Source of the DNA: Burkholderia metallica
GTDB lineage: Bacteria; Pseudomonadota; Gammaproteobacteria; Burkholderiales; Burkholderiaceae
Direction of reading: 5' to 3'
DNA length: 64,000 nucleotides
NCBI RefSeq assembly: GCF_902832845.1
Contig: NZ_CADFDB010000006.1
Span: 62,001-126,000, forward strand
A model generated the notes under the pieces. The model did no database searches. It was given only the letters and a program-made list of their open reading frames with translations, and was not told the origin of the DNA. Numbering within the stretch: the first letter of the stretch is position 1; every line of letters begins with the position of its first letter. The translations under genes were made by a program, and so were the position numbers. Of the stretch, positions 34,204 to 53,870 are shown one piece after another.

Positions 34204-34306
34204 CGACCTCTTTAGCCGCATTTGTAGTGAACCGCCGGGACAAGGACACAACATCCACACCCCGGCCGGTTCGCGCGCCCGCAATCGAGTCAGCAAATCG
34301 GCGCGC
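34204..34306 (-). ncRNA. SAM-II-type riboswitch in the metX leader (long third loop)
   Basis: Read as RNA on the minus strand. P1 is GCGCGCC (34306-34300) with GGCGCGC (34279-34273). The 20-nt loop contains GAUUU, then UGAC (34292-34289), then AUUGC (34285-34281). After P1 an extra hairpin (GAACC...GGUUC, 34272-34229) is inserted, then ACAAAUGCGGCUAAA with GCUAAA at 34216-34211, then GAGGUCG. UGAC pairs with GUCG (34207-34204) to give the P2b pseudoknot, and UUGC faces GCUAA as in SAM-II, where two of these uridines contact the SAM sulfonium. Known SAM-II aptamers share GAUUU, UUGC and AAAUG-nn-GCUAAA. The inserted hairpin is the unusual part. Confidence 0.8.
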
Positions 34307-51205: not shown

Positions 51206-51589
51206 ATGACACGCATCTTCAATCCGCCCCATCCAGGCGAAGCGCTGCGCGACGACGTGCTGCCGGCGCTGGGCCTGTCCGTCACCGAGGCCGCCGCGCA
51301 GCTCGGCGTGACGCGTGCGGCGCTGTCGCGGATCCTGCACGGCCATGCCAGCATCTCGCCGGAAATGGCATTGCGTCTCGAGGCATGGCTGGGCGAAGAC
51401 AATGGCGGGCGTGCCGACCTTTGGCTCGCGCAGCAGGTTGCGTTCGATCTCTGGCAGGCGCGCCGAAGGTGGCGAGAGCGCAGGCGCGCGCATGACGGCG
51501 CGCCCGCGGGATTCGCCCGACGGGCGTCAGGTCAGTACAGGCTCGGTTCGCCGGCCGGGCGGGTCTTGAAGCGCTTGTGGACCCAATAG
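51206..51589 (+). CDS. higA: HigA family addiction-module antitoxin (orphan)
   Basis: A 127-residue helix-turn-helix protein. It begins [23 protein letters not shown], the canonical HigA start, and has [40 protein letters not shown] as the XRE-type DNA-binding domain. Similarity ends near residue 88 (DLWQARRR). The last 40 residues are Arg-rich and read through the 3' end of the convergent lpxL gene, overlapping it by 58 bases, which suggests the original stop was lost. GAGG at 51191-51194 supports the ATG at 51206, though a start at 51182 is open. Its toxin partner is only a fragment. Confidence 0.85.
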
Positions 51590-52416
51590 TATTGCTCGGG
51601 CATCAGCGGGATCTGTTCTTCCAGGAATGCGTTCATCCGCCGTGCGTCGAGATCGTCGTCGCCGGTCGGGTAGTGATCCCACGGCTTGAATACCTTCAGA
51701 CGATAGCCCTTGTAATTCGGCAGCACCTCGCCGATGAACGGCACGACCTGCGCGCGGCCCGTCTTCGCGAGCCGGCCGACGGCCGTCAGCGTGCAGGCAG
51801 GCACGCCGAAGAACGGGACGAACGTCGAATTGCGCAACCCGTAGTCCATGTCGGCGCCGAGCATCACCGGCTTGCGGTCGCGCAGCCAGCGCAGCACGAC
51901 GCGCGCGCTGTCCGCGCGGCCGACCATCTCCGCGTCGAATCGCCCGCGCGCCTGCTTCGCCGCTTCCTCGAGCACCGCGTTCGAGAACGGCTGGTAGAGC
52001 GACCCGCAGCGGCGGTGCAGCGAACGATTCAGCCAGATCGAGCCGGCCTCGATGCCGACGAAATGCAGGCCGAGGAACAGCGTCGGCGGCAGGTCCGGAT
52101 CGTCGAGATCGACCGCGCTGTCGACCTGGATCAGCTTCGCGAGCTTTTTCTCCGAACCGAACCACTGCACGCTGCGCTCGACGTAGCTGCGGATCGCATG
52201 GCGGAAATGCTGCCCGGCGACTTCCTCGCGCCGCGCGTCGCTCCAGTCCGGGAAGCAGAGTTTCAGATTGGTGTGTACGATGCGTTTTCGCCGGCTGGGG
52301 ATCTTGTAGAGCAGCCAGCCGAGACCATCGCCGAACCGTGCGGTCAGGCCGTACGGCAACAGGGCGAGCAGTTTCAGCAAGCCAATGGCGAGGTGCGTGC
52401 CGAGACGACCTAGCAT
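51532..52416 (-). CDS. lipid A biosynthesis lauroyl/myristoyl acyltransferase (LpxL/HtrB type)
   Basis: A 294-residue late acyltransferase that adds a secondary acyl chain to lipid A. The N-terminal helix ([20 protein letters not shown]) anchors it in the inner membrane. [14 protein letters not shown] contains the catalytic HX4E motif, and [15 protein letters not shown] and a later YRLKVFKPW segment are family marks. The ATG at 52414-52416 follows GGAGG. It is divergent from metK. The acyl-chain preference cannot be told from sequence. Confidence 0.92.
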
Positions 52417-52499
52417 GCGAAACCTCCGTGGAACCGGCTGGCCGGCGCGTTGCGAACAGGTGGGTGAGACAGCGGAAGATGCAGCACGGGCGGCACTCT

Positions 52500-52526
52500 G
52501 TGACAATTCAGGAAAGCCGCTATAAT
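52500..52526 (+). promoter_or_regulatory. metK promoter
   Basis: GTGACA at 52500-52505 (five of six matches to the -35 consensus) and a perfect TATAAT at 52521-52526. The 15-base spacer is short. Transcription would begin at about 52530-52533, right at the riboswitch P1 stem. Confidence 0.6.
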
Positions 52527-52529
52527 ACG

Positions 52530-52617
52530 GGCTTCGCCGAGTTAACTGACAACTTGCGGGGCGAAGCCGGTTGGCGTCACACACGCTGCCCGGTCCTGGT
52601 AATCCGCTAAAGCGTCG
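52530..52617 (+). ncRNA. SAM-II-type riboswitch in the metK leader (long third loop)
   Basis: P1 is GGCUUCGCC (52530-52538) with GGCGAAGCC (52560-52568), perfect over nine pairs. The 21-nt loop contains GAGUU, UGAC (52547-52550) and CUUGC (52553-52557). After a 37-nt stretch, GGUAAUCC leads to GCUAAA (52606-52611), then GC and GUCG (52614-52617). UGAC pairs with GUCG to form the pseudoknot, with three bases between UGAC and UUGC as in the published SAM-II aptamer. The metX leader has the same order and near-identical spacing. The long stretch between P1 and GCUAAA is unlike the compact classical form. Confidence 0.75.
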
Positions 52618-52682
52618 CCGCTTCAGGCCCAACGAAGCTGGCTACGTGAAACCAACCGTAACCACACAGGAGCCTGAAAAAA

Positions 52683-53870
52683 GTGGCAAACGATTATCTC
52701 TTCACGTCCGAATCCGTCTCCGAAGGCCATCCGGACAAAGTCGCGGACCAGATCTCGGACGCGATCCTCGACGCCATCCTCGAGCAAGACAAGTATTCCC
52801 GTGTCGCGGCGGAAACGCTGTGCAACACGGGTCTCGTCGTGCTGGCCGGTGAAATCACCACGACGGCCAACATCGACTACATCCAGATCGCACGCGACAC
52901 GATCAAGCGCATCGGCTACGACAACACCGACTACGGCATCGACTACAAGGGTTGCGCGGTGCTCGTCGCGTACGACAAGCAGTCGCCGGACATCGCGCAG
53001 GGCGTCGATCGTGCGCACGACGACAACCTCGATCAAGGCGCGGGCGACCAGGGCCTGATGTTCGGTTACGCGTGCGACGAAACGCCGGAACTGATGCCGC
53101 TGCCGATCTACCTGTCGCACCGTCTCGTCGAGCGCCAGGCCAGCCTGCGCCGCGACGGCCGCCTGCAATGGCTGCGCCCGGACGCGAAGTCGCAGGTGAC
53201 GGTCCGCTACGTCGACGGCAAGCCCGATTCGATCGACACCGTCGTGCTGTCGACGCAGCACGCACCGGACATCGAACTGCCGGCGCTGCGCGAAGCCGTG
53301 ATCGAGGAAATCATCAAGCCGACGCTGCCGGCCGACCTGATCAAGGGCGACATCAAGTTCCTGGTGAACCCGACCGGCCGGTTCGTGATCGGCGGCCCGC
53401 AGGGCGACTGCGGCCTGACCGGCCGCAAGATCATCGTCGACACGTACGGCGGTGCCGCACCGCACGGCGGCGGCGCGTTCTCGGGCAAGGATCCGTCGAA
53501 GGTCGACCGTTCGGCTGCGTACGCAGGCCGCTACGTCGCGAAGAACATCGTCGCCGCCGGCCTCGCGTCGCGCGCGCTGATCCAGGTGTCGTACGCGATC
53601 GGCGTGGCCGAGCCGACCTCGGTGATGGTCAACACGTTCGGCACGGGCCGCGTGTCGGATGCAGTGATCACGAAGCTCGTGCGCGAGCATTTCGACCTGC
53701 GTCCGAAGGGCATCATCAAGATGCTCGACCTGCTGCGCCCGATCTACGAAAAGACCGCCGCTTACGGCCACTTCGGCCGCGAAGAGCCGGAATTCTCGTG
53801 GGAAGCGACCGACAAGGCGCTCGCACTGGCCGAAGCGGCCGGCGTCGAGCCGACGGCACGCGTCGCGTAA
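52683..53870 (+). CDS. metK: methionine adenosyltransferase (SAM synthetase)
   Basis: Makes S-adenosylmethionine from methionine and ATP. The 395-residue enzyme starts with GTG ([21 protein letters not shown]), with AGGAG at 52668-52672. [11 protein letters not shown] binds ATP and Mg2+, [12 protein letters not shown] is the second signature, and [19 protein letters not shown] is the third. The 150-base leader carries a SAM-II-type riboswitch, so the product should repress its own synthesis. A strong terminator follows, so metK is monocistronic here. Confidence 0.98.

Follow-up and report, generated by a model that had tools for sequence, protein, structure and literature searches.

The window, by which we mean the whole 64-kb stretch of DNA analyzed here, carries metK, the gene for SAM synthetase, whose product matched TIGR01034 with 604 bits (cutoff, 309.4). 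Upstream of it, a mechanical list of open reading frames holds a minus-strand frame (51532 to 52632) listed as starting inside the metK leader; its true start is likely near 52419. A sequence-only reading of the window had described, in front of metK, a P1 of 9 bp whose 21-nt loop contains UGAC and CUUGC, followed by a GCUAAA motif and a GUCG motif, and every one of these was found in place (Table 1). From the position of TATAAT, the metK transcript would start at about 52532 to 52534, within the 5′ strand of P1, and the outer two to three P1 pairs may lie upstream of the transcription start. Boxes resembling −10 elements were seen by eye shortly before P1 in many relatives; a strict promoter scan did not find a full −35/−10 pair at the metK leader. 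Across 72 metK leaders, the inner five of the nine P1 pairs alone were traceable, and among 71 leaders the span from TTGC through GCTAA had lengths of 27 to 91 nt.

Table 1. Coordinates of the metK leader, its predicted alternative helices, and the related metX element
Feature	Positions	Strand	Evidence
Probable −10 box, TATAAT	52521..52526	+	Sequence
P1 5′ strand, GGCUUCGCC (9 bp with 52560-52568)	52530..52538	+	Sequence; inner UCGCC (52534-52538) covaries with GGCGA
Loop, 21 nt, GAGUUAACUGACAACUUGCGG	52539..52559	+	
Predicted third strand of triplex, GAGUUA (SAM-II: GAUUU)	52539..52544	+	Row conservation
P2b 5′ strand, UGAC	52547..52550	+	GAC/GUC becomes GAAC/GUUC in Comamonadaceae-type leaders
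CUUGC of the loop	52553..52557	+	
P2a 5′ strand, UUGCGG	52554..52559	+	Covaries with CCGCUAA (GC to AU or UA)
P1 3′ strand, GGCGAAGCC	52560..52568	+	Sequence, covariation
Variable-length insertion between P1 and P2 (L3)	52569..52603	+	
P2a 3′ strand, CCGCUAA and the next A	52604..52611	+	GCUAAA conservation
GCUAAA (predicted SAM contacts U52608, A52609, A52610, and A52611)	52606..52611	+	
Predicted anti-sequestor hairpin (AT), CGUCGCCGCUUC with GAAGCUGGCUACG	52613..52646	+	Folding, pairing comparison
P2b 3′ strand, GUCG (switching strand)	52614..52617	+	Covariation
Predicted sequestering helix (PS), 52617-52628 with 52672-52678 and 52683-52687	52617..52687	+	Pairing comparison
Shine-Dalgarno sequence, AGGAG	52668..52672	+	Sequence
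metK, SAM synthetase, 395 amino acids, GTG start at 52683	52683..53870	+	ORF, TIGR01034
Related element before metX, outside the metK switch	34204..34306	−	RF00521, 17.8 bits, below cutoff

A conserved pseudoknot in front of metK

The string GCUAAANNGUCG occurs once in the 64 kb, compared with 0.04 occurrences expected. To take out circularity, a covariance model (R2) was built from 33 other metK leaders with the window excluded; none of its seeds was labeled Burkholderia, Paraburkholderia, or Caballeronia, and the helix modeled was P2, not P1. Searched against the 64-kb window, R2 returned the metK leader as its sole good match (64.1 bits, E = 7.6e-14; next best, 7.9 bits). The match is not a product of chance.

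We gathered 80 metK loci by protein similarity, without regard to their leaders. A simple pattern detected the motif in 70 of 81 metK leaders, the window included, and one further leader (L031) carries it with an insertion, as seen by eye. A second covariance model, R1, built from metK leaders alone (34 seeds), matched 72 of the 81 sources at E ≤ 0.1, each once, on the plus strand and upstream of metK, and nothing else in 384 kb; 34 of these 72 matches are the model's own seeds. The weakest match (21.1 bits) came from an endosymbiont (L023) whose element is degenerate and keeps the 3′ half alone. Nine sources gave no R1 match (L044, L045, L046, L049, L051, L052, L053, L082, and L067), of which L067 offered only 3 nt of upstream sequence, leaving eight metK leaders without the motif. 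Two motif-positive sources, binned as Mycobacteriaceae (L040) and Akkermansia (L060), are probably misbinned. The sequence-only reading had staked its claim on the core being kept in the metK leaders of related species, and this tally, one degenerate match included, favors it.

Wider searches with R1 used stricter Infernal filters for the order, class, and phylum. In the window's own genome, R1 gave one significant match, at metK (next E, 1.66). Within the order, 160 of 250 genomes had a match at E ≤ 0.001; at E ≤ 0.01, matches came from 79 of 276 genomes of the class and 34 of 249 of the phylum. metK lay downstream in all 14 of the best-scoring same-order loci examined (L141, L144, L170 to L174, and L195 to L201), and metK with a slightly divergent sequence was found at L170, L174, L185, L205, and L206. 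We conclude that the metK leader element is a real, widely conserved regulatory RNA that, by these scans, is not in Rfam 15.

Two further features of the metK loci were recorded. Four of the motif-less leaders (L045, L049, L052, and L053), two of them labeled Methylophilaceae/Methylotenera, share another stretch, GCUU(U/C)AGCCUUUAGU, about 50 to 65 nt before metK. On the other side of the gene, an SAH riboswitch (RF01057, 41.9 to 57 bits) follows metK by roughly 10 to 100 nt in L030, L033, L041, and L043, and by 1.3 kb in L035, which places the metK element and an SAH switch in series at these loci.

Compensatory changes support folding of the metK leader as an H-type pseudoknot of P1 and P2, in alignments of 34 and 72 sequences. 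In the 34-sequence alignment, 96.9% of cells were paired, with 40 two-sided changes compared to 11.7 in shuffles. The 72-row alignment, made with a model that knew the P1 pairs only, gave 96.8% of cells paired and 73 cells changed on both sides compared to 20.5 in shuffles, a two-sided count reached by none of 500 shuffles; when partners were slid, pairing fell to 38 to 49%. The informative pairs lie in P2: in P2a, pair 36-141 is GC in 47 rows, AU in 19, and GU in 4, and pair 37-140 is GC in 65, AU in 3, and UA in 1; in P2b, pair 26-152 is GC in 51, AU in 15, and GU in 4. P2b is also longer on both sides together in the Comamonadaceae-type leaders (Table 1). The outermost P2b pair is not conserved, being unpaired in 31 of 71 rows.

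Predicted ligand-contact bases and relation to known SAM riboswitches

The putative third strand is nearly invariant: positions 1 and 3 to 6 (G, G, U, U, and A) are the same in all 71 rows with letters, its two Us included, and only position 2 varies (A, 69 rows; G, 2 rows). GCUAAA is kept almost as strictly (GC and AAA in 72/72 rows, U in 71/72), as is the UU of UUGC (70/70). According to the structural account of SAM-V in PMC6061858, SAM is bound there virtually as in SAM-II: its adenine pairs with U47, to which U8 also bonds; the triple U20:A48.U9 half-surrounds the sulfonium; and A50 holds the amino acid end. We aligned the metK columns to SAM-V ourselves, by motif, using the contact list of the same source. 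On this alignment, the metK equivalents of U47, A48, A49, A50, U9, U10, U19, and U20 are conserved in the rows with letters, apart from the degenerate L023, which has C for U47. At the position of U8, the third-strand U that contacts only the ligand-pairing U, all 71 metK rows have G.

At gathering thresholds, Rfam models found one tRNA in the window and nothing else, RF01727 being among those not reported. RF00521 (SAM-II) did not report the window's metK leader at E values up to 10, nor was this leader among the genome's five weak matches to that model; likewise, neither RF01826 (SAM-V) nor RF01726 (SAM-II long loops) matched anywhere in the genome at E = 10. Among 13 relatives, RF00521 gave full-length matches to the metK leader in 5, at 18.7 to 22.1 bits (cutoff, 36), and none in the remaining 8 at E = 10, with no other match at E ≤ 10 in 50 kb of these relatives' sequence.

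In its overall plan, the metK element resembles SAM-II in having P1, a loop of the form GA(U/G)UU...UUGC, GCUAAA, an H-type pseudoknot, and an association with methionine and SAM genes. Three nucleotides separate the 5′ strand of P2b from UUGC, and two separate GCUAAA from its 3′ strand; the order and spacing of the elements follow the RF00521 consensus and the sequence of the published SAM-II structure. However, the metK element differs from SAM-II in carrying GAGUU in place of GAUUU, in its P2a, whose four pairs stack on P1 uninterrupted by the bulged base of the metX element, and in scoring, for the best relative, 13.9 bits under the Rfam cutoff. It also sits on metK itself, where it is predicted to mask the Shine-Dalgarno sequence and start codon and to have a separate anti-sequestor. 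The SAM-II long loops (RF01726) have the SAM-II core with a longer connecting loop. A table of PMC2864571 lists them for Bacteroidetes and marine samples. SAM-V shares with the metK leader the same SAM-contact bases and has a masking helix that adjoins the aptamer (PMC6061858), as is predicted for metK, but the metK leader is without the fixed 3-bp P3 and belongs to another lineage; moreover, its predicted sequestering helix starts at the last P2b base and is much longer than the two pairs of SAM-V. The SAM/SAH riboswitch (RF01727) is likewise a pseudoknot on metK, but of another fold, and is given as confined to Rhodobacterales (PMC4239095 and PMC2864571).

R1 also picked up SAM-II-like elements elsewhere in the GTDB class, in other families, before metZ-like, metF, and metK genes (identified by eye) and before a MetN-type transporter gene (ABC_tran and NIL domains by Pfam). 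Scanning 20 such loci with RF00521 gave an element above the cutoff in four. For L153 and L166 that element is the R1 match; for L149 and L151 it is instead the first member of a tandem pair, upstream of the other. Taken with the subthreshold RF00521 matches, this retrieval leads us to class the metK element as a variant of the SAM-II superfamily without filing it in RF00521. As far as sequence comparison reaches, it is of a known architectural kind with a distinct core. That a SAM-II-type pseudoknot precedes the SAM synthetase gene, as the sequence-only reading proposed, is thus strongly supported by covariation, by conservation of the contact bases, by the subthreshold RF00521 matches, and by the cross-matches of R1.

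The arrangement and neighbors of these related elements were varied. SAM-II-like elements stand in tandem, about 90 to 155 nt apart and a few hundred bases upstream of a transporter gene, in loci L175 to L179 (genomes G466, G597, G378, G425, and G500); the transporter is MatE by Pfam in L175, L176, and L178 and by resemblance in L177 and L179. An element of the GAUUUG/GAGUUG type comes first, followed by one of the metK-like GACAAC-UUGC type, in L175, L176, and L179, and the second copy in L177 and L178 is known from model matches only. Further tandem pairs, 100 to 113 nt apart, occur in L143, L145, L149, L151, and L160, followed by metF in L151 and L160 (by eye) and by a MoxR-like AAA gene in L145 (Pfam). 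SAM-II-like elements also lie upstream of a gene for an HD_4-domain protein in L149 (the same place as L193) and in L183, where a divergent metK comes next. In the phylum search, 11 genomes of one family (f144) gave R1 matches with E values of 1.4e-9 to 1.1e-6; in the three loci examined (L202, L203, and L204), the element precedes a gene for a protein of 102 to 106 amino acids, the C-terminal half of which is weakly methyltransferase-like, below all cutoffs. Another locus of this family, L148, carries the Pseudomonas sRNA P11.

The metX element of the window, on the minus strand, was said by the sequence-only reading to belong to the same class as the metK element. The two leaders do have UGAC, UUGC, GCUAAA, and GUCG in common, and this part of the claim, the SAM-II core, stands. 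In the metX element, the P1 5′ strand GCGCGCC (34306-34300) is followed by a 20-nt loop, GAUUUGCUGACUCGAUUGCG, and then by GCUAAA (34216-34211) and GUCG (34207-34204). Its loop begins with GAUUU, in contrast to GAGUU in metK; the gap from GCUAAA to GUCG is 3 nt, compared to 2 nt in metK; and the base beside GCUAA is bulged (CGGCUAA), whereas that of metK is paired (CCGCUAA). The metK model, moreover, was blind to it: when R2 was run on the window at E = 10, the metX element was not among its matches, and with filters off, over 601 bases, its best score was 4.0 bits outside the metX element and 3.0 bits on its 3′ part. With its differing third strand, bulge, and spacing, the metX element is, on these comparisons, a different branch from the metK element. 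The pattern GATTTG...TTGC...GCTAAA was present before metX in 44 of 50 family loci, the window's included. When RF00521 was applied to 14 further metX leaders, 7 scored 19.4 to 20.5 bits, with 6 of the matches confined to the P1 half, and the remaining 7 gave nothing at E ≤ 1. The window's metX element is very probably the metXZ element described in PMC4239095, where these bacteria are shown to have a conserved pseudoknot in the leader of metX/metZ. The section of that paper devoted to it differs from our account of metK in presenting a terminator-antiterminator, with a ligand not named and no link drawn there to SAM-II.

A predicted translational switch and its alternatives

Downstream of the pseudoknot, two mutually exclusive helices are predicted. 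The 5′ strand of the predicted PS helix, GCCGCUUCAGGC, lies directly 3′ of P2b and would pair with GCCUGAA and GUGGC, hiding the Shine-Dalgarno region together with the GUG start codon. Among 19 close leaders, PS cells were 92.9% paired, falling to 28 to 42% when slid; covariation in these leaders was weak, with 38 to 500 of 500 shuffles as high, depending on the measure. Pairing with the leader's own start region was better than with partners from other classes in 67 of 71 leaders (mean, −18.9 versus −12.9 kcal/mol, uncorrected for relatedness). The AT hairpin is the lowest-energy fold of the nascent RNA from 52606 to 52660 (−15.7 kcal/mol). It was 99.5% paired in the 19 close leaders, where it is almost invariant and shows no two-sided change. 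Elsewhere, by eye, its partner tracks the switching strand (GCGUUCGCC/GGCAACGC, GCGUCGCGCC/GGUGCAACGC, and CGCAG/CUGCG). Across lineages, its mean energy was −12.8 compared to −9.6 in shuffles, 24 of 71 leaders reached p ≤ 0.05 against shuffled tails, and own pairing beat other-class pairing in 55 of 71 (uncorrected for relatedness); sequence support for AT across lineages is therefore moderate. AT uses G52614 and U52615 of P2b as well as 52617-52624 of PS, and so excludes both. When the tail of the window's leader was forced into either state, the sequestered form had −25.4 kcal/mol and the anti-sequestor form −21.1 kcal/mol; PS being somewhat more stable than AT, the ON state would need kinetic help. 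This predicted anatomy suggests a translational switch in which the ligand-bound pseudoknot favors masking.

Two other pairings of the tail were considered and set aside. Re-pairing of the tail with P1 (UCGCC/GGCGA), as in the second conformation of the metXZ element, is not maintained: by eye, several leaders have CCGCC or GCCGCC in P1 yet keep UCGC in the tail; a local AAGCG/CGCUU hairpin, also judged by eye, is not conserved outside the close group. In many Comamonadaceae-type leaders, the first codons of metK (A4 columns 93 to 104) contain AUGGCGAAC, which is complementary to the switching-strand GUUCGCC, a match that may constrain the N-terminal codons at the RNA level.

We consider it probable that the metK leader is a translational SAM-OFF riboswitch built on the SAM-II/SAM-V pseudoknot, through which the product would feed back on SAM synthetase. 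Sequence comparison and folding support the pseudoknot, its conservation before metK, the conservation of the contact bases, and, with the anti-sequestor the weaker part, the mutually exclusive helices. We infer that SAM is the ligand, that its binding is the OFF signal, and that the choice between folds is made during transcription, from a start site placed by the −10 box. In this mechanism, the transcript would start at P1, and P2 (UUGCGG/CCGCUAA plus GAC/GUC) would enclose SAM, GAGUUA lying in the major groove as the third strand. Closed P2 would hold the GUC strand in the pseudoknot; pairing of GCCGCUUCAGGC with GCCUGAA and GUGGC would follow and hide both the Shine-Dalgarno region and the start codon, and no SAM synthetase would be made. 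Without SAM, the emerging CGUCGCCGCUUC would fold onto GAAGCUGGCUACG, undoing P2b, taking up the 5′ strand of PS, and leaving the start site open. Counted against this SAM-OFF reading are the failure of RF00521, RF01826, and RF01726 to report the window's metK leader, the invariant G of the third strand, the near invariance of AT and the weak covariation of PS in the close leaders, the moderate support for AT across lineages, the greater stability of PS, the motif-less metK leaders, and R1 matches at MoxR-like genes: strong matches outside the order are not always followed by metK, those in L142 (E = 8.5e-15) and L145 (E = 2.5e-12) preceding MoxR-like AAA genes. A bolder proposal, which we regard as unlikely, is that metK-type RNAs constitute a separate aptamer class within the SAM-II fold, set apart by the G-for-U triple and the unbroken P2, and that in other Proteobacteria, where elements with the metK-like GACAAC-UUGC core come second in tandem to a canonical SAM-II-like element before MATE genes, the two could form a two-input or steepened switch, possibly with other ligands or affinities.

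The pseudoknot could instead be an ON switch, or act through transcription termination rather than masking of the start site. The sequestering helix does belong to the lowest-energy ligand-free fold of the tail, and most SAM-II members are described as transcriptional in PMC6061858. However, no intrinsic terminator-like site was found in 52400 to 52720, positive feedback on SAM synthetase would be unlikely, the switching strand is common to P2b and the anti-sequestor, and data on Sinorhizobium metA supported masking of the Shine-Dalgarno sequence by SAM-II (as related in PMC9373788); we judge such a mode of action quite unlikely. It is very unlikely that the same fold senses another ligand, whether SAH or another SAM-like metabolite. 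Such a change would fit the G at the SAM-V U8 position in 71 of 71 rows, the lack of the P2a bulge present in the metX element, and the related elements found outside the methionine pathway, before MATE, HD-domain, and MoxR-type genes; yet the bases equivalent to the adenine, sulfonium, and amino acid-end contacts (contacts as given in PMC6061858) are kept, the gene downstream encodes SAM synthetase, and the upstream tandem copy in L151 passes RF00521 while itself carrying GAGUU. A sequestering helix alone would suit a protein equally well, but conservation in the metK leader centers on a pseudoknot core whose bases agree with the ligand contacts of a validated SAM aptamer, making it highly improbable that the leader is bound by a protein (for example, autogenous MetK) or targeted by a small RNA rather than being a riboswitch. 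Finally, strong conservation of the primary sequence might suggest a DNA operator for a SahR- or MetR-type methionine regulator, but compensatory base-pair changes, halves lying 27 to 91 nt apart, and a position directly after the −10 box leave that reading with virtually no probability.

The control of SAM synthetase in betaproteobacteria appears as a gap in the literature: the 2014 regulon study placed metY, metK, and metNIQ under no known regulators in these bacteria, and its search for an element failed (PMC4239095). Both PMC2258182 and PMC2704228 make general mention of SAM-II in betaproteobacteria. Among the titles and abstracts listed from the open-licence literature, we found no report of a SAM-II element on metK in these bacteria. 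The main text of a transcription start study of B. cenocepacia does not contain "metK," and the regulatory motifs it gives from comparing 5′ untranslated regions with Rfam are SAH and sucA (PMC4603805). A variant of the SAM-II fold on metK would fill this gap with direct product feedback. The metK element also shows where the Rfam SAM-II model falls short, links the orphan metXZ element of these bacteria with the SAM-II superfamily, and, through its natural U-to-G change in the triplex, offers a ready test of the determinants of SAM affinity and selectivity.
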